Below are positions 526-64,000 of a stretch of DNA of 64,000 nucleotides, piece after piece. The stretch comes from a virus, in the IMG/VR virus record IMGVR_UViG_3300036806_000217, positions 23,341 through 87,340 of that record; one strand, 5' to 3'. Under the pieces are notes generated by a model that did no database searches, was not told where the DNA came from, and saw only the letters and a program-made list of their open reading frames with translations. A program made the translations under genes and the position numbers. The number at the start of each line of letters is the position of its first letter. The first letter of the stretch is position 1.

Positions 526-779
526 TCCCCACGGGCAGCAACCGCAGCGCGGGCAGCAACATCCTCTGCCCGCGCTGCGGCGCGCCCGTGATCACCACCC
601 CCGACGGCGAGCTCCTCAACCCCGAGACCGACCCCCTGGGCCTCCACCTGCCCGACGGCGGACGCCTCGACGCCACCCAGGCCCTGCCGATCCTCGCCGG
701 ACGCGCCCCGCCCCGCGGCCACCACCGACATGCCCCCGGTCCCTACGGCTGCAACCCAGCACCTCTCACATTGTTCTGA
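522..779 (+). CDS. Small CxxC zinc-ribbon-like protein
   Basis: This 85-codon gene starts at a TTG overlapping the stop of the DUF2303 gene, so translation is probably coupled; no clear Shine-Dalgarno is visible. The protein has CPRCGAPV near residue 15, an acidic middle and a C-terminal cluster of histidines and one cysteine, compatible with one metal site. Function unknown. The whole frame is open much further upstream, but that part overlaps DUF2303 and is read as a shadow. An internal GTG is an alternative start. Confidence 0.6.
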   Translation: MIPTGSNRSAGSNILCPRCGAPVITTPDGELLNPETDPLGLHLPDGGRLDATQALPILAGRAPPRGHHRHAPGPYGCNPAPLTLF

Positions 780-798
780 GCACGAGGAGCACCACGAC

Positions 799-2553
799 GT
801 GGACAACGTCCGCCACATCGACGACCCCCGCACCGGGGACGACGGCACCGGGCGGCCCCCCAGCCTCGACGACGACGCCGAGCAGTACCTCATGGCCGCC
901 ATCCTCGACAGCCCCCGCGGCTACCAGGAAGCCGCCGAGGTCGTGGACCGCGTCGACATCGAGAAGCCCGGCTACCGGCTGATCTGGGACGTCACCGGCC
1001 AGCTCGTCCAGGCCGGGCAGCCGTCCCACTTCATCGCCGTGCGCGCCGAGATCGAACGCCTCGGCCGGATGCGGGACATCGGGCACGGCAAGCTCATCGA
1101 CGACCTGTCCGCGGTCAACATGCCCGCCGGGTCGGCCGGCTACTTCGCCGAGAAGATCGCCAAGAACGGGCGGGCCCACCGCGCCCGCACCGTAGCCCTG
1201 CGGCTGCGGAATGCCGCCGACGACCCGAACGCGGACGTCGACGTCTTCGACAAGATCCTCACCGAGTACTGGACCTACGAGGCCCAGCGCGCGATGGGCA
1301 CCAGCGGCCCAGCCAGCCGCGTCGACGCCCTCATCGCCGAGATGCTCGACACCAAGGCCCTGGACGACATGCCCGCCCTGGAGCCGCTCCTCGGGGACCT
1401 GCTGCACCTGGACACCCTCGCCCGCGTCATCGGCCCCTCCGGCCACATGAAGAGCTTCGCGGTCATCGACTTCGCCGGCCACATCGGCACCGGCCGCCGC
1501 TGGCACGGCCGCTACGTGCGCCAAGGCCTGGTGGTGTACCTCGTCGCCGAAGGCTCCGGCGGCATCCGCAAGCGCGTCCGCGCCTGGGAGCGGCACCACG
1601 GCGTCGCCATGGAGCACGTCCTGTTCCTGCCCCGCCCCGTCCAGGCCATGGACTCCGAGTGGCTCACCCTCATTGAGGCCTGCCGGCGCCTGGGCCCGGC
1701 GCTGGTCATCGTCGACACCCAGGCCCGCGTCTCGGTCGGGGTGGAGGAGAACTCGGCGAAGGAACTCGGCCTGGTCATCGACCGCATGGAGCAGCTGCGC
1801 GCCGCAACCCGCGCCTGCATCCTGCTGATCCACCACACCGGCCACGTCGGCGACCACGGCCGCGGCTCCACCTCCGCCAAGGGCGCCCTGCAGTCCGAGC
1901 TCCACGTCTCCAAGAAGGGCGACCGGGCCGCGAACACCATCGTCACGATCAAGACCGGCAAGCAGAAGGACGACGAGCAGGACGGCGACATCCAGTTCGG
2001 GCTGAAGGTCGTGAACCTGCCCGGCGAGGCGAAGCCCGACGGTCGGCCCGTCACCTCCGTGGTCCTGGTACCGCTCGGGGAGGCGTCACAGGCCTCCGGA
2101 TTCGAGGCCCCAGAGGGCACCGTCGACTGGCTCGTGCAGAAACTCGACGCCGCGAAGGTCCCCGCGGACTGGGGCAATCGGCTCGTCAAAAAGTGGTTCA
2201 TCGATCAAGGAGTCCCGGCCGGCAGCACGAAGGTCGAGGAGGTCGTGAGGCTGCGGAAGTCGCGTGTTTCAGACGTTCCCCCGCATGTTCCCTACCAGCC
2301 AGTAACAGAAATGTTCCCCCAAGCCGGGGAACACGAAGACGTTTCCGCAGGTCAGACGTTCCCCGGGAACGTCGGGGGAACACCGGGGACCCCCGTTCCC
2401 CCGCAGACGTTCCCCCGCCCTCCTTCTAGGGAGGGGGAACGCAAGGACGGCGACCCGATATGCGCCTCCTGCGACAAGCCCATGGACCCCGCCTGGAAAG
2501 CCCGCGGATACGACACCCACGTCATCTGCGACACCACCGGAGAACCCGCATGA
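799..2553 (+). CDS. RepA/DnaB-like replicative helicase-type ATPase
   Basis: 584 residues from a GTG preceded by GAGGAG nine bases upstream; an in-frame ATG at 730 lacks a ribosome site. Residues about 15-120 resemble the DnaB N-terminal domain. An AAA_25/RepA-like RecA fold follows, with Walker A GPSGHMKS (about 215-222), YLVAEGSGG, a Walker B-type strand ALVIVDTQ, and IHHTGHVGDHGRGS typical of RepA-type hexameric helicases. The C-terminus is a low-complexity Pro/Gly linker encoded by a GTTCCC repeat array, then a CxxC...C zinc-binding tail. It should load on and unwind the phage origin. The next gene begins in the stop (ATGA). Confidence 0.88.
   Translation: MDNVRHIDDPRTGDDGTGRPPSLDDDAEQYLMAAILDSPRGYQEAAEVVDRVDIEKPGYRLIWDVTGQLVQAGQPSHFIAVRAEIERLGRMRDIGHGKLIDDLSAVNMPAGSAGYFAEKIAKNGRAHRARTVALRLRNAADDPNADVDVFDKILTEYWTYEAQRAMGTSGPASRVDALIAEMLDTKALDDMPALEPLLGDLLHLDTLARVIGPSGHMKSFAVIDFAGHIGTGRRWHGRYVRQGLVVYLVAEGSGGIRKRVRAWERHHGVAMEHVLFLPRPVQAMDSEWLTLIEACRRLGPALVIVDTQARVSVGVEENSAKELGLVIDRMEQLRAATRACILLIHHTGHVGDHGRGSTSAKGALQSELHVSKKGDRAANTIVTIKTGKQKDDEQDGDIQFGLKVVNLPGEAKPDGRPVTSVVLVPLGEASQASGFEAPEGTVDWLVQKLDAAKVPADWGNRLVKKWFIDQGVPAGSTKVEEVVRLRKSRVSDVPPHVPYQPVTEMFPQAGEHEDVSAGQTFPGNVGGTPGTPVPPQTFPRPPSREGERKDGDPICASCDKPMDPAWKARGYDTHVICDTTGEPA
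2272..2440. repeat. GTTCCC/GGGAAC repeat array, candidate replication origin
   Basis: Within 169 bp there are ten copies of GTTCCC or its complement: six forward (2275, 2287, 2313, 2358, 2395, 2409) and four reverse (2327, 2365, 2376, 2435). Most sit in a longer GACGTTCCCCC context, and 2355-2373 is a palindrome, GACGTTCCCCGGGAACGTC. They lie in the linker-coding 3' end of the helicase gene. Iterons beside or inside a replication gene are common in phages and plasmids; the origin assignment is inference. Confidence 0.6.
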
Positions 2554-3168: not shown

Positions 3169-3587
3169 CCGCGCCGTTCTCCCCCGCCGATCTCGCCCTG
3201 GTCGCGCTCATCGCCGAAGGCCACGGCAACCGCGACATCGCCGCGAAGCTGGACCTGACCCTGGGCACACTCAAGTACCGCATCGAATGCCTGATCCGCA
3301 GCCGGCGCACCTGCAGCCGGGCAGCCCTCGTCGCCCAGGCCTGCCACGCCGGACAGCTCGGACCAGCGGCCAGCGAGCCGCTCGTGCTGCCGTGCCGGCT
3401 GCGGGAGATCCTGCCGGGCCTCGCCGCCGGATGGAGCAACCCACGGATCGGGAAGAGCCTGTTCCTGTCGGCGGACACCGTGAAGGGGCGCGAGGTGCAG
3501 CTGTTCGCGCTGCTCGGGGCCAACGGGCGGGCCAACGCGATCCTGCTGGCGTATCGGGCTGGACTGCTGCAGGAGGCGGGACGGTGA
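3165..3587 (+). CDS. Tandem LuxR-type HTH DNA-binding protein
   Basis: 140 residues from a GTG overlapping the previous stop. Two LuxR/GerE-like HTH units occur in tandem: residues about 6-50 (ALIAEGHGNRDIAAKLDLTL) and about 78-128 (GLAAGWSNPRIGKSLFLSA), the second ending in the usual A..LAYRAGLL helix. There is no receiver or sensor domain, so it is probably a small transcription factor of the early region. A duplicated LuxR HTH in one short polypeptide could bind as an intramolecular pseudo-dimer. The next gene starts in its stop. Confidence 0.8.
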   Translation: MTAPFSPADLALVALIAEGHGNRDIAAKLDLTLGTLKYRIECLIRSRRTCSRAALVAQACHAGQLGPAASEPLVLPCRLREILPGLAAGWSNPRIGKSLFLSADTVKGREVQLFALLGANGRANAILLAYRAGLLQEAGR

Positions 3588-6808: not shown

Positions 6809-6863
6809 CCCCGCCTGCCCGTCGCTGTGGCACCCGCGGCGGCAACCAACGAAAGGACTGGTC

Positions 6864-7064
6864 GTGACCGCCGAGAAGCTCCACCGCCTCCGCTGCGACG
6901 CCAAGCGCGACGGGCGCAACAACCCGCCCTGCGGAACACCGTCCGAGACCTCCGGCGGCTTCATCTTTCTGCCCGACTTCCGCGCCCACCTCAAGACGCA
7001 GGGCTGGCACCGCAGCGGCAGCAAGGACATCTGCCCCGACTGCTGGACCGACGGCTACCGCTAA
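6864..7064 (+). CDS. Small cysteine-containing protein
   Basis: 66 residues from a GTG preceded by GAAAGG. Four cysteines are arranged RLRCDAK, PPCGTP and ICPDCWTDG, compatible with one zinc site formed across the chain. It sits directly before the methyltransferase gene, 53 bases upstream. Function unknown. Confidence 0.7.
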   Translation: MTAEKLHRLRCDAKRDGRNNPPCGTPSETSGGFIFLPDFRAHLKTQGWHRSGSKDICPDCWTDGYR

Positions 7065-7117
7065 CCCCCCGCCCCGTCTTCGCGTCTTCGGGCGCACCCC
7101 AACCCAGGAGCAGCACG

Positions 7118-8869
7118 ATGAGCAAGTCCGCGACCCGCAGCCGCACCGCCACGCACAGGCCGGCCACCAAGCGCCGCCGGTTCCGCCACGACGAGCTCGT
7201 CGCAGTCGACCTCTTCAGCGGCTTCGGCGGACTGACCAAGGGCATCGAGATCGCCGGATTCAACACGATCATGGCCGCGAACCACAACGCCTACAAAGTC
7301 GAGGTCCACGAGGCCAACCACCCCAACGCCGAGCACTGGATCGCAGACCTGGTCGACCCCGAAGCTGCCGACTACCACTCGGCGCGCGACCTTCCCGCAG
7401 CCGATCTCCTCGTCGCCGGGGTGTCCTGCGTCAACCACTCGAAAGCGAACACGCTCAAGGCCTACGCGCAGGGCCTGACGCTGTTCGAGCTTGAGGACCC
7501 CGAGTTCGACGCGCGGGTCACCCGGTCCGAACGGGACCGGGCAACCGCGAACTGCGTCCTGCACTACGCCGCCCAGCACCACCCGCGGCTGATCCTCATC
7601 GAGTGCACCACCGAGCTCACCTCATGGGGGCCCGCACTGCCGTCACGCCCGAAGGTCGGCGACGGCAGCACGTACCGGTGGTGGCTCAAGCAGTTCGACG
7701 TGATCGGCTACGACCACAAGGTGCTCTACCTGAACTCGATGTTCTTCGGCGTGCCGCAGTCGAGGAACCGCGCCTACTGGGCGTTCTGGGACAGGACCCT
7801 GGGCGCCCCCGACCTCGACCACAGGCCGGCGACGCACTGCCCCAGTTGCGACATGGACGTGGAGGCGGTGTGGTCCTGGCGGACCGGCGTCCCGCCGACT
7901 GGAACGGTGAGCTACGGCCTGCAGTACGACTACCGCTGCCCACGCTGCCGCCGCGAGGTCGTGCCGCCGATGACGCCGTCGCTGGTCGCTCTCGACCTGG
8001 CCAACCTGGGCACCCGCATCGGCGACAAGCCCGTCAAGACGTTCAAGGACGGATGGGTCGGACCGCTCGCCCGCACGACGATGGCACGCGCCGAACGGTG
8101 CCGGCAGAAGTTCGCCGACTTCCCGGCCGTGCTGATGCCGGCCAAGGCCGTGCACGGCTCGGAGCGGCACCCGTGGCAGCCTCTGTCGACGCAGACCAGC
8201 CAGCAGGAGACCGCCCTGATCTCTACTGGCTCGGTCGTTGCCGCGCACCGGCACAACGGCGACGGGCAGCACTTCACCCTGCCGATGGACACCGTCACGA
8301 CAACGCAGGAGAAGGCCCTGCTGCTCGCCGTCGACAACTTCCAGGGCGCACCGCGGGGCGTCCATGACCCGCTGCCGACGCAGGTCGGTTCCGAGACGAT
8401 GGCGATGCTGTCCACCGGCGTACTGCCGTTCCGCAAGCACACCACGCCGACGACGCACGGCGAGGCGATGCCGACGGTCACATCGGACCAGATCCCCGGG
8501 GTGCTGACCGCGGCCGGCGCAGTACACGCCGGCTGGTACAAGCAGAACGGCTCGGTCGGCAACGAGACCGCGCCGCACCCCATGACCGACCCGTTCGGCA
8601 CCATCACTGCCCACGACACGACCGGGCTGCTCATGGCCGAGTGGCGTGCGCAGTTGTCCGACCTGCCGTTGGAGGACTGCTACTTCCGCATGATGCGCGA
8701 GTACGAGATCGGTCGTGGCTGCGGCTTCGACGTCGACTTCCCCGACCACAAGGGCACCTTCATCGTCTGGGGGAGCGCTCGCGACCAGGTCGACGGCTAC
8801 GGGAACGCCGTGTCCCCGCCGGTCGGCGCGTGGATCGGGGCTCGGCTGCGCGCCGTCCTTCATGCCTGA
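7118..8869 (+). CDS. DNA (cytosine-5) methyltransferase with inserted zinc ribbon
   Basis: 583 residues; AGGAG precedes the ATG by eight bases. Family motifs in order: I, AVDLFSGFGGLTKG (29-42); IV, GVSCVNHS, where Cys104 is the expected nucleophile but the usual PCQ is SCV; VI, IECT (161-164) in place of ENV; VIII, GVPQSRNRAYW (211-221); and the C-terminal GYGNAVSPP of motifs IX/X. Between VIII and the recognition region lies CPSC...CPRC (C241, C244, C274, C277), a likely zinc ribbon. The protein should methylate cytosine in phage DNA, most simply to escape host restriction. The altered IV and VI motifs leave activity to be shown. Confidence 0.88.
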   Translation: MSKSATRSRTATHRPATKRRRFRHDELVAVDLFSGFGGLTKGIEIAGFNTIMAANHNAYKVEVHEANHPNAEHWIADLVDPEAADYHSARDLPAADLLVAGVSCVNHSKANTLKAYAQGLTLFELEDPEFDARVTRSERDRATANCVLHYAAQHHPRLILIECTTELTSWGPALPSRPKVGDGSTYRWWLKQFDVIGYDHKVLYLNSMFFGVPQSRNRAYWAFWDRTLGAPDLDHRPATHCPSCDMDVEAVWSWRTGVPPTGTVSYGLQYDYRCPRCRREVVPPMTPSLVALDLANLGTRIGDKPVKTFKDGWVGPLARTTMARAERCRQKFADFPAVLMPAKAVHGSERHPWQPLSTQTSQQETALISTGSVVAAHRHNGDGQHFTLPMDTVTTTQEKALLLAVDNFQGAPRGVHDPLPTQVGSETMAMLSTGVLPFRKHTTPTTHGEAMPTVTSDQIPGVLTAAGAVHAGWYKQNGSVGNETAPHPMTDPFGTITAHDTTGLLMAEWRAQLSDLPLEDCYFRMMREYEIGRGCGFDVDFPDHKGTFIVWGSARDQVDGYGNAVSPPVGAWIGARLRAVLHA

Positions 8870-20624: not shown

Positions 20625-21338
20625 CTAGGCGGCATCGTGCTCGAAGGGCGGTGGTTCGCCCATCACGTCGAGCAGCCGCTCGGGAAGCGAATTGGGGCCA
20701 AGCAGCGGGTTGACGCAGGCCACGTTGCCGTCCAGCCAGTTGAACGGCACCGCGCCGCCGACCTCCAGCCACAGGGCGGTGTGCGACAGGTCGATAGCGA
20801 CCGGGTCGATGTCCATGCCGTACACGCACTCGAACGTCACCATCGGCAGGACCAGCGCGACCAACTCCGGCGGCGTGCTGCCGTCGACAGTCAGCCGCGA
20901 CACATACGCCTCGGCGATCATGCGGGAGGCCTCGATCAGGAACACCCCGGCGCCACACGCCGGATCGACCGCCCGGATCCTCAGGATCTGCTCCGGATCG
21001 TCCGCCTTGAGCAACTGCTCGGTCTCGCGGATCTCGCGGAGGATCTGCTTGACGCGGGCCTTGAGCGCCTTCGCTTCGGGCTTGCGGGAGAGGAAGATCA
21101 GCTCCCAGATGCCGTCCTCGTAGATGACGTTGAGTTCCTGCAGGCCGCCGGGGGTACCCACAATCTGGGTACCCTTCTCGTCCTCGCCGAGCAGGCGCGT
21201 CGCCTTCTCGGCGTCCCGGTGGCCCATGGCCTTCGCGAAGTCCGTGGCGGCCACCCACGGCGTTCCGTCCTCGGCCAGACCGAAGCGCATGCTCTCGCCG
21301 CCGAGGTCGAACGGCATGATTTCGCGCGGGTCGTTCAC
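20625..21338 (-). CDS. Bro-N antirepressor domain fused to a truncated N6-adenine methyltransferase domain
   Basis: 237 residues. Residues 8-105 are a Bro-N domain: MRFGLAEDGTPWVAATDFAK, then MGHRDAEKATRLL and a helical end. From about 118 the protein switches to a type IIG/Eco57I-like methyltransferase core: VDPACGAGVFLIEASR (motif I, 124-139) and YGMDIDPVAIDLSHTALWLE (173-192), ending just after the GN-x-V...NPL segment. The catalytic NPPY/F motif and recognition domain are missing. It can probably bind AdoMet but not methylate. Bro-N proteins act as phage antirepressors or regulators. The gene overlaps the XRE gene upstream (ATGA-type). Confidence 0.8.
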   Translation of the reverse strand: MNDPREIMPFDLGGESMRFGLAEDGTPWVAATDFAKAMGHRDAEKATRLLGEDEKGTQIVGTPGGLQELNVIYEDGIWELIFLSRKPEAKALKARVKQILREIRETEQLLKADDPEQILRIRAVDPACGAGVFLIEASRMIAEAYVSRLTVDGSTPPELVALVLPMVTFECVYGMDIDPVAIDLSHTALWLEVGGAVPFNWLDGNVACVNPLLGPNSLPERLLDVMGEPPPFEHDAA

Positions 21339-21767: not shown

Positions 21768-22337
21768 ATGGGGAGCCCAGCAAGCATGAGCCGCCACCCA
21801 CGCTTCGCCCAGTGGCTGGCCACCGCCATGCGCACAGCCGGCCTCGACATCGACAAGCAACGCGGCGGCGGCCGAGCCGAACTCGCAGAACGCCTCAACG
21901 TCTCCCGCAGCACCATCACCCGCTGGCTCGAAGGCGGCAGCCTCCCCGGCCCCGAATACATCGAGCCCCTCGCCGAAGCCCTCAACGTCTACGTCGACGA
22001 CATGCTCATCAGCGGCGGCATCGTGTCGCCCGGCCGCATGACCCCGGCCGGCGCTGAACAGGCCGCCCGCAATGGCGGGATCTACGACTCCGGCGTCGAG
22101 CTCCCCGCGGACCTCGACCTGACCAAGCTCGCGGAACTCCTCGGCTACCTACCCGAAGAGCAAGAGATCTTCGTGGCCGTCGTCGAGACCACCATGGCCG
22201 CGCTCCGCGAACGCCGGATCAGAGCCATCGCGCCGCCCTTCGAGGTCACCGTCGCCGAGAGCGACAGCTTCCGCCAGTCCGGGGCGTCCCCGACGATGCA
22301 GATCGACGAGCCCACCACCGAGGACTACCCGCACTAG
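21768..22337 (+). CDS. XRE-type repressor-like protein
   Basis: 189 residues from ATG 21768 (possibly leaderless), or 183 from ATG 21786, which has GGGGAG upstream. The HTH spans about 15-80: GRAELAERLNVSRSTITRWL then LAEALNVYVDDMLISGG. The C-terminal part is acidic and helical and may dimerise; there is no peptidase motif as in LexA/CI. It is the first rightward gene after the switch region, so a lysogeny repressor is the simplest reading. Confidence 0.78.
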   Translation: MGSPASMSRHPRFAQWLATAMRTAGLDIDKQRGGGRAELAERLNVSRSTITRWLEGGSLPGPEYIEPLAEALNVYVDDMLISGGIVSPGRMTPAGAEQAARNGGIYDSGVELPADLDLTKLAELLGYLPEEQEIFVAVVETTMAALRERRIRAIAPPFEVTVAESDSFRQSGASPTMQIDEPTTEDYPH

Positions 22338-27466: not shown

Positions 27467-28380
27467 CCATGGACGAGATCGACGACGCCCCCGTCGCCTC
27501 GCCGGAGACCATCCGGCGCCTCATGCTGTTCGCGGTCATCCTGTCCATCGCCTCGACCGCCACAGCGTTCTGGCTCTCCTACGAGCACCTCCACGACGTC
27601 GCCAGCGGCCATGGCCTCAGCGCAGCCCGCGCCTGGGCATGGCCCGGCACGGTCGACACCTTCATCATCATCGGCGAGGTGATGATCCTCGTCGCCAACC
27701 TTCTCCGCAGGACCGACGGGTGGGCCATCTGCGTAACCGTCATCGGCTCCGTGGGCTCCGTCGCCCTGAACGTCGCTGGCGTCGGAGCGCACGCGGCGAT
27801 CATGACGTATATCGTCGCGGCGGTGCCGCCCTGCGGCGCGCTCATGTCCTTCGCGATTCTCATGCGGCAGATCAAGAAGGTCCTCACTCCACGACGGGAC
27901 GAGGCGGAGCCGTCGGCGGATGCAACGACGGATCAGCCCATCGCCGACGACGGAGCAGCCGACGGAAGCCGGCCACCCGTCGTCGGGAAGACCGTCGACC
28001 CGACGCCTCCCGACGCGACGGAAGCGGCTCGATCCGTCGTCGAGTCGACGCCTTCCGTCGACCTTCCCGACGCTTCCCCCGTCGCTGCATCCGTCGTCGA
28101 GAGGCCAGCCCAGCCGCCGACGACTCGTCGGCCGAAGGCGACCCGATCCGCCACCGGGAAGCGTCCGCCCCGTCGGTCTCTCGACGAGTGGGTGGAGATC
28201 GCCGGGCCGATCTTCCACGCCGAGTTCCAGCGCCTCCGCAGGAAGCCGACCGCCAATGAGTTTGCTCAGGCGATCGACCGGGCCGGCTTCGGCCTGCCCT
28301 CGGACACGGTGGCGAAGACGATCCGTTCGGAGATTCTCGACCGCGCGGACGTCCCGGCTCTGAGTGAGGAGGGGCAATGA
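27463..28380 (+). CDS. DUF2637 membrane protein (Spd-like)
   Basis: 305 residues; ATG in the previous stop, GAAGGG upstream. The N-terminal 135 residues match DUF2637: WLSYEHLHDVASGHGL, RAWAWPGTVDTFIIIGEVMI and two further TM helices (four in all, about 18-38, 60-80, 86-106, 110-134). A long Asp/Pro/Val linker (145-215), encoded by a CCGTCG repeat array, leads to a C-terminal basic domain with RSLDEWVEIAGPIFHAEFQR. DUF2637 proteins are hallmarks of Streptomyces conjugative plasmids and integrative elements, where they accompany Tra and Spd functions. Confidence 0.84.
   Translation: MTMDEIDDAPVASPETIRRLMLFAVILSIASTATAFWLSYEHLHDVASGHGLSAARAWAWPGTVDTFIIIGEVMILVANLLRRTDGWAICVTVIGSVGSVALNVAGVGAHAAIMTYIVAAVPPCGALMSFAILMRQIKKVLTPRRDEAEPSADATTDQPIADDGAADGSRPPVVGKTVDPTPPDATEAARSVVESTPSVDLPDASPVAASVVERPAQPPTTRRPKATRSATGKRPPRRSLDEWVEIAGPIFHAEFQRLRRKPTANEFAQAIDRAGFGLPSDTVAKTIRSEILDRADVPALSEEGQ
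27910..28096. repeat. CCGTCG repeat array inside the DUF2637 gene
   Basis: Eleven copies of CCGTCG or its complement start at 27910, 27926, 27948, 27960, 27977, 27992, 28016, 28034, 28055, 28079 and 28091, about 12-24 bp apart and in both orientations. They fall in the part encoding a low-complexity linker. Short repeated octamer-like sites beside traB are how Streptomyces plasmids mark the DNA that TraB binds; such a role here is inference. Confidence 0.5.
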
Positions 28381-63396: not shown

Positions 63397-64000
63397 TGGC
63401 CGACCTCTACCTGCCGGACCTGAGCGAGTTTCAGGGCACCGTCAACTGGCACACCCTGGTTTCGAGCGCGTACCCGGTGGCGATCATCCGGGCGCACAAC
63501 GGCTCGAGGGCGGACTACTACTGGTCGGCGAACCGGGCCGGTGCGCATGCGGCGGGCATCCGAGGCCTGGGCATCTACCAGTACTTGCAGGCGTCCCGTG
63601 ATGCGGCGGCTCAGGCCAACGCCCTGTGCGATCTGATCGGGTCGCTGCGGGTCGGCGAGTGGGCGATCTGCGACCTCGAGGAAGGCTCGGGGGACCAGTC
63701 CGCTCGAGCCCACGCCTGGTACACGACGGTCGCCGGGCGGCTGCACAACGCCTCGAGCGAGGAGCTGTACTCCGGCGATTACTTCTTCGGTGCGCATCAC
63801 CTGTCGGCTGCGGGGTTCTCGAGGATCTGGCTGGCGGCGTACTCGAGCACGGAGCCGTCGGCGGTGCACGAGCTGTGGCAGTTCACGGATGCCCGGTCGT
63901 TCCCCGGCATCTCGGGGAAGACGGACGCGTCGGTGTTCCACGGCACGACGGCGGAGCTGCTGGCGCACGTCAATCCGCCCACTCCTGCCCCGAAGCCCAA
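63396..64000 (+). CDS. GH25-type endolysin (3' end outside window)
   Basis: The ATG overlaps the previous stop, and at least 201 residues are visible before the window ends. The GH25 lysozyme pattern is clear: YLPDLSEFQGTVNW at the start, AIIRAHNGS, GIYQYLQASRD, WAICDLEEGSG with the catalytic acidic pair, and ELWQFTDA. It cleaves the glycan strands of peptidoglycan. A Pro-rich linker begins at the edge (PPTPAPKP), so a cell-wall-binding domain probably follows. Confidence 0.88.
   Translation, partial: MADLYLPDLSEFQGTVNWHTLVSSAYPVAIIRAHNGSRADYYWSANRAGAHAAGIRGLGIYQYLQASRDAAAQANALCDLIGSLRVGEWAICDLEEGSGDQSARAHAWYTTVAGRLHNASSEELYSGDYFFGAHHLSAAGFSRIWLAAYSSTEPSAVHELWQFTDARSFPGISGKTDASVFHGTTAELLAHVNPPTPAPKP

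Follow-up and report, generated by a model that had tools for sequence, protein, structure and literature searches.

From its sequence, a Streptomyces-type phage appears to have its replication start inside the gene of the very helicase that reads it. In the window (the whole stretch of 64,000 nucleotides analysed here, part of an 87,340-base viral record), ten exact copies of GTTCCC/GGGAAC are placed in both orientations near the 3′ end of a replicative helicase gene, and we give a probability of roughly 0.8 to the reading that this array is a phage replication origin composed of iterons and located within the gene of the helicase that recognizes them. The array itself, its recurring place and layout, the conservation of its DNA across reading frames and the correspondence between the HTH domain of the helicase and the iteron motif were observed directly, and from these we infer iteron binding, melting, self-loading and origin use by the helicase. 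The coordinates of the features are collected in Table 1.

Table 1. Features of the helicase gene and of its iteron array, in window coordinates
Feature	Position	Strand	Remarks
DnaB-type / AAA_25 (RepA-like) replicative helicase gene	730-2553	+	607 aa from first ATG at 730
DnaB-like N-terminal domain, residues 49-144	874-1161	+	Pfam PF00772
AAA_25 / RecA-fold ATPase domain, residues 213-374	1366-1851	+	Pfam PF13481
Three-helix HTH domain, residues 463-513	2116-2268	+	proposed origin-binding domain; AlphaFold pLDDT ~90
N483-R484, opening HTH helix 2	2176-2181	+	position predicts the variable bases of the iteron
Iteron array	2275-2440	.	ten exact copies and one variant; codes for disordered linker
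GTTCCC copies	2275, 2287, 2313, 2358, 2395, 2409	+	
GTTCCC copies	2327, 2365, 2376, 2435	-	
Iteron variant GTTTCC	2341-2346		one copy, in addition to the ten exact ones
AT-richer spacer within array	2290-2312	.	candidate melting site
Conserved non-iteron element CAGGTCAGAC	2348-2357	+	CAGGTCARAC in relatives
19-bp palindrome GACGTTCCCCGGGAACGTC	2355-2373	.	two inverted iterons 1 base apart; directly after element CAGGTCAGAC
Dyad CCCTCC-TTCTAG-GGAGGG	2418-2435	+	set distance from element; stem letters differ among relatives
Cys/His-rich C-terminal motif C578-x2-C581 ... H597-x2-C600	2461-2532	+	possible zinc site

The ten copies and the 19-bp palindrome, which an earlier note on this DNA had reported, were recovered at these positions, and their clustering is beyond chance. 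A short-repeat cluster scan ranked the array as the top cluster of the entire record (Poisson score of 16.1 vs 11.4 for the next unrelated 6-mer cluster) and found no second comparable array of the GTTCCC motif in the record. Window-wide, the 6-mer was found 42 times against 36 expected, and it is its clustering alone that is unusual. Synonymous resampling that preserved the peptide and followed the codon usage of the gene yielded at most seven copies in 20,000 trials, and the permutation of only the segment's own synonymous codons produced about 4.7 copies on average, reaching ten in 3 of 20,000. The copies fall in two frames on the + strand and in three on the - strand, and the local GC content at 2251-2350 (0.58 vs ~0.70 genome-wide) presented a mild dip only. 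Two other clusters were observed in the record: CCGTCG, repeated 11 times in 187 bp at 27910-28096 of the window, which was the second-strongest 6-mer cluster, and CTGACAA, present five times in 175 bp at L002:9469-9643 (score of 12.0). No Rfam families were found in the window.

The gene had been described as RepA/DnaB-like, which was borne out by Pfam matches both to AAA_25 (PF13481; 2.7e-29, 102.7 bits, cut-off 27) and to the DnaB N-terminal domain (PF00772; 1e-7, 32.4 bits, cut-off 23), as well as by an AlphaFold model that matched DnaB structures in Foldseek (best E of 1.3e-13). Its real start is probably the GTG at 799, as judged by alignment with relatives. The model presented a confident helicase core, a confident HTH at residues 463-513, with helices at 465-474, 483-492 and 499-513, and disorder at 515-573. 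This disordered Pro/Gly-rich linker coincides with the stretch coded by the array, in line with the linker-coding location proposed for it in the earlier note, and the array is placed between the coding parts for the HTH and for the Cys/His-rich end, a motif whose ligand order differs among relatives. The search for the HTH in plasmids gave no match. Foldseek with the isolated 63-aa domain returned no significant structural match, so that its putative DNA binding is deduced from its form together with the motif correspondence presented below.

Upstream of the helicase gene, there are genes for an exonuclease VIII family member and a RuvC-like resolvase and, further upstream, a serine recombinase gene, which suggests a temperate, integrating phage. 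PHROGs also identified a DNA methyltransferase (6827-8869), an antirepressor (20625-21338) and a repressor-like gene (21768-22337) in the window. The record opens with 127 bases (L002:1-127) that recur exactly at its end (63874-64000 of the window), suggesting that the assembly is a closed genome, probably a circle of ~87.2 kb. The whole-record GC skew, which the earlier note had put forward as a check on the origin, was computed and tracks gene strand without marking the array site, being uninformative in this respect.

The closest named relative is gp21 of mu1/6, a Streptomyces aureofaciens phage, which is ~30% identical and annotated as a DNA helicase only. At the corresponding position, its gene carries a ACCTGCCC array, with the same element and palindrome. 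Single-protein pattern scans of viral and genome contigs found no relatives, whereas a two-row alignment with mu1/6 gp21 succeeded as a query, and the relatives were gathered by alignment-based scans of viral contigs and Streptomyces genome loci. The genome search with the mu1/6 protein returned mostly chromosomal dnaB, which was used as the control set. All 36 untruncated relatives with a Cys-rich end harbored a two-orientation array in the same place near the 3′ end, always outscoring every other cluster in the locus, and most of them carried another motif (CTCCCC, CTGCCC, CTGTCC or GTTTCC). Moreover, an array was found at the gene 3′ end in 47 of 56 other AAA_25 helicases, mostly just past the stop codon, and in none of the 22 chromosomal dnaB genes, these counts not being independent because the sets were not thinned for redundancy. 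No array was present in five of the six RepA-like helicases examined from cultured phages (mycobacterial, rhodococcal, nocardial and vibrio), which indicates that the layout is not universal. One locus (L051), perhaps a decayed copy, kept the GNR HTH with no array, and in another (L010:7632-7653) the helicase frame ends early at a C run within the array, possibly by a sequencing error. In most of the chromosomal loci (L063-L085), a cluster of four to seven copies of TCCACA, which is DnaA-box-like, was observed upstream of dnaB, ~1.7-2.0 kb ahead of its stop codon.

The arrays share a common layout of direct sites, spacer, the element CAGGTCARAC, palindrome, inverted sites and dyad. The palindrome was found at +10/+17 of the element in many members, and the element-to-dyad distance was +61 to +72 in most relatives; the dyad stems were chosen as the longest ones, and their pairing is therefore not independent and does not constitute covariation evidence. 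Across the family, CAGGTCARAC occurs in frames 0, 1 and 2 in 3, 21 and 15 matches, respectively, and its region is translated as GQTFPG in the window, QVKHS in L026 and RSNIPP in L008. Since one element is maintained though translated in three frames, it is the DNA and not the peptide that is kept, as the earlier note had suspected, and the reading in which the peptide is under selection was rejected on this ground. That note would have been contradicted by relatives that keep the peptide and lose the repeats; the opposite was found, with the array kept while peptide and frame change. In L035 and L036, either of which could be a damaged copy, the helicase stops ahead of the array, and element, palindrome and dyad are still present. 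Other reading frames stay open through both arrays, and the claim for these two is limited to their lying outside the helicase frame. In the wider family, 37 arrays begin at or past the stop codon; 18 of these have every forward frame closed, and 12 have all six frames closed. There are thus arrays, with other motifs, from which no continuous peptide could be translated.

Going beyond the earlier note, the comparison of these sequences revealed that the motif differs among relatives and tracks residues of the helicase's own HTH. The residue following G482, which opens HTH helix 2, matched the motif class in 34 of 34 rows, GN being found with GTT, GR with CTG, and GS, GG or GQ with CTC. Considering only the middle base of the motif, N occurred with T (15/15), R with G (7/7), and S, G or Q with C (12/12), the GS, GG and GQ rows (and then V) having been lumped into the C class after the data were seen. 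Three GNP rows, whose commonest 6-mer was TTCCCC, were counted as GTT with the register shifted by one, and they also hold seven to eight copies of GTTCCC. While the window presents GTT with GNR, mu1/6 gp21 presents CTG with GRD. There are two helicase backbones, each with all three HTH/motif classes. The backbone of the window is nearest that of L086 (62% over 411 columns), which carries CTC with GSP, and such near backbones with different classes indicate that HTH and array changed together. The HTH class changes at least seven times on the backbone tree; the independent phylogenetic pairs on supported branches were all concordant or uninformative, numbering two to four per class, too few for a sign test to reach 0.05.

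Later loci came from a further scan, with HTH rows that were not used for the rule and classes read by eye, a row being left out if its protein end duplicated an earlier one. GTT was found in 25 of 25 GN rows, most of them closely related to rows on which the rule was built. Distant loci carry more weight. Among these, GRD was accompanied by CTGTCC in L210 and by CTGTACC in L217 and its near-duplicate L231, and L220, with GRN and GRP in two ORFs and CTGTCC, also agrees with the rule. The two L220 ORFs, which end at 3448 and 3768, each carry an HTH and are placed ahead of one CTGTCC array. L213 (GVP, CTCCCC) and L224 (TN, GTTCCG) were counted as agreeing, L216 (GRR) with CGCACC breaks the rule as the single clear exception among the later loci, and L225 (GFR) with GTGTGC falls outside it. 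A second rule, relating an HTH loop of GN to TCC and of GS to CCC, was only partial, with L015 (GGS), L042 (GSS) and L049 (AGS, tied) as misfits, and is not claimed.

In the proposed explanation, a DnaB-type helicase would bear its own origin-binding HTH, C-terminal to the motor domain. One or two helicase hexamers would attach to the inverted GTTCCC iterons through their HTH copies, which would place the motor at the array; nearby DNA would melt, and no separate initiator or loader would be required for the helicase to load. As for the peptide coded by the array, it would be a mere flexible linker, tolerating whatever the DNA dictates. The iteron-type origin that the earlier note had placed in the helicase gene is supported in that multiple copies of one short site lie in or next to the gene of the presumed initiator, its activity as an origin being predicted from the sequence.

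The working principle is known from other systems. In SCCmec Cch2, the C-terminal domain binds iterons located directly past the 3′ end of the gene, which are required for binding and unwinding (PMC7581432), and the SaPI/PICI rep-ori is a related self-loading initiator helicase system (PMC6092414). By analogy, Cch2 is the closest tested analogue of the window's helicase and array. As in SaPI Rep/Cch2, the predicted DNA-binding domain is C-terminal to the motor and the iterons are at the gene 3′ end; unlike these motors (Cch with DUF927; Cch2 of the D5 type), that of the window is DnaB/RecA-type, and Pfam and fold place the protein outside the SaPI Rep/Cch2 family. Moreover, the SaPI Rep/Cch2 origin is intergenic, whereas in the window's subfamily the array is within the helicase gene and is distinguished by its two orientations, embedded palindrome and fixed element. 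In phage lambda, the iterons lie midway along the gene of the initiator O (PMC7466680, PMC6022878), and those of the window are similarly inside a gene, between domain-coding parts. However, lambda O is a motorless initiator to which host DnaB comes by way of P, whereas the window protein is itself a helicase. The best reading by analogy is that the window system would be SaPI Rep/Cch2-like in mechanism and lambda O-like in layout. Phage N15 also has its origin inside repA, which codes for a multi-domain replication protein, probably of a different protein family; the likeness is one of layout. In the Streptomyces plasmid pWTY27, the iterons GTGGGAAC and TTCCCAC were protected by RepA in footprints (PMC3583192). 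They resemble GGGAAC/GTTCCC in sequence and are located in a 300-bp noncoding stretch, whereas those of the window are in a gene. A literature search, largely without subscription journals, found no description of such a layout for DnaB-type phage helicases. With a known working principle, a different motor family and no earlier description found, the system would represent a new variation on self-loading initiators.

Sites in two orientations to which an HTH binds might just as well be operators, through which the helicase or a phage repressor would control the helicase operon or downstream transcription, and the window does code for a candidate repressor and an antirepressor. This is unlikely, since the array is inside or just past the gene 3′ end, away from any known promoter, that position recurs in 47/56 of the other AAA_25 helicases, no second comparable array of the motif exists in the record, and the motif follows the helicase's own HTH. 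The last point, together with the serine recombinase, which points to a prophage that integrates and therefore needs partition less, also makes it highly unlikely that the array is a partition/incompatibility (centromere-like) site and not a replication start, even though repeat arrays beside rep genes can be centromeres and some mycobacteriophages carry a parS locus of five direct repeats just downstream of repA (PMC7157519).

It is very unlikely, too, that the array is an origin read by a separate phage or host initiator, with the helicase HTH serving otherwise: lambda-type phages have such an initiator, whose gene contains the origin (PMC7466680), but HTH class and motif co-vary here within one protein across both backbones. 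Hardly any credence is due to a low-complexity Pro/Gly linker giving repeated DNA by chance in a GC-rich genome. The segment is indeed Pro/Gly-rich and disordered, and its own codons yield some copies by chance, as described above, but this is contradicted by one conserved element in three reading frames, by copies on both strands and in several frames, and by relatives' arrays past the stop codon.

Beyond this phage, the iteron origin within a helicase gene would quite probably represent a type of phage replicon that is widespread and so far undescribed. In such replicons, a DnaB-type helicase would act as its own initiator, with the origin in its gene or immediately behind it; HTH and array would pass jointly from one backbone to another, and a short HTH position would be a code predicting the origin sequence. 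If true, the helicase sequence would suffice to locate, and partly to predict, the origin in many actinobacterial and environmental phages and prophages. These bacteriophages would also offer a natural series of self-loading DnaB-type helicases, in which the open question of how a ring helicase reaches its chosen site could be studied in a simple system. Further gains would be a rule of DNA recognition for which nature supplies several swaps, and compact replicons on which Streptomyces vectors could be built.
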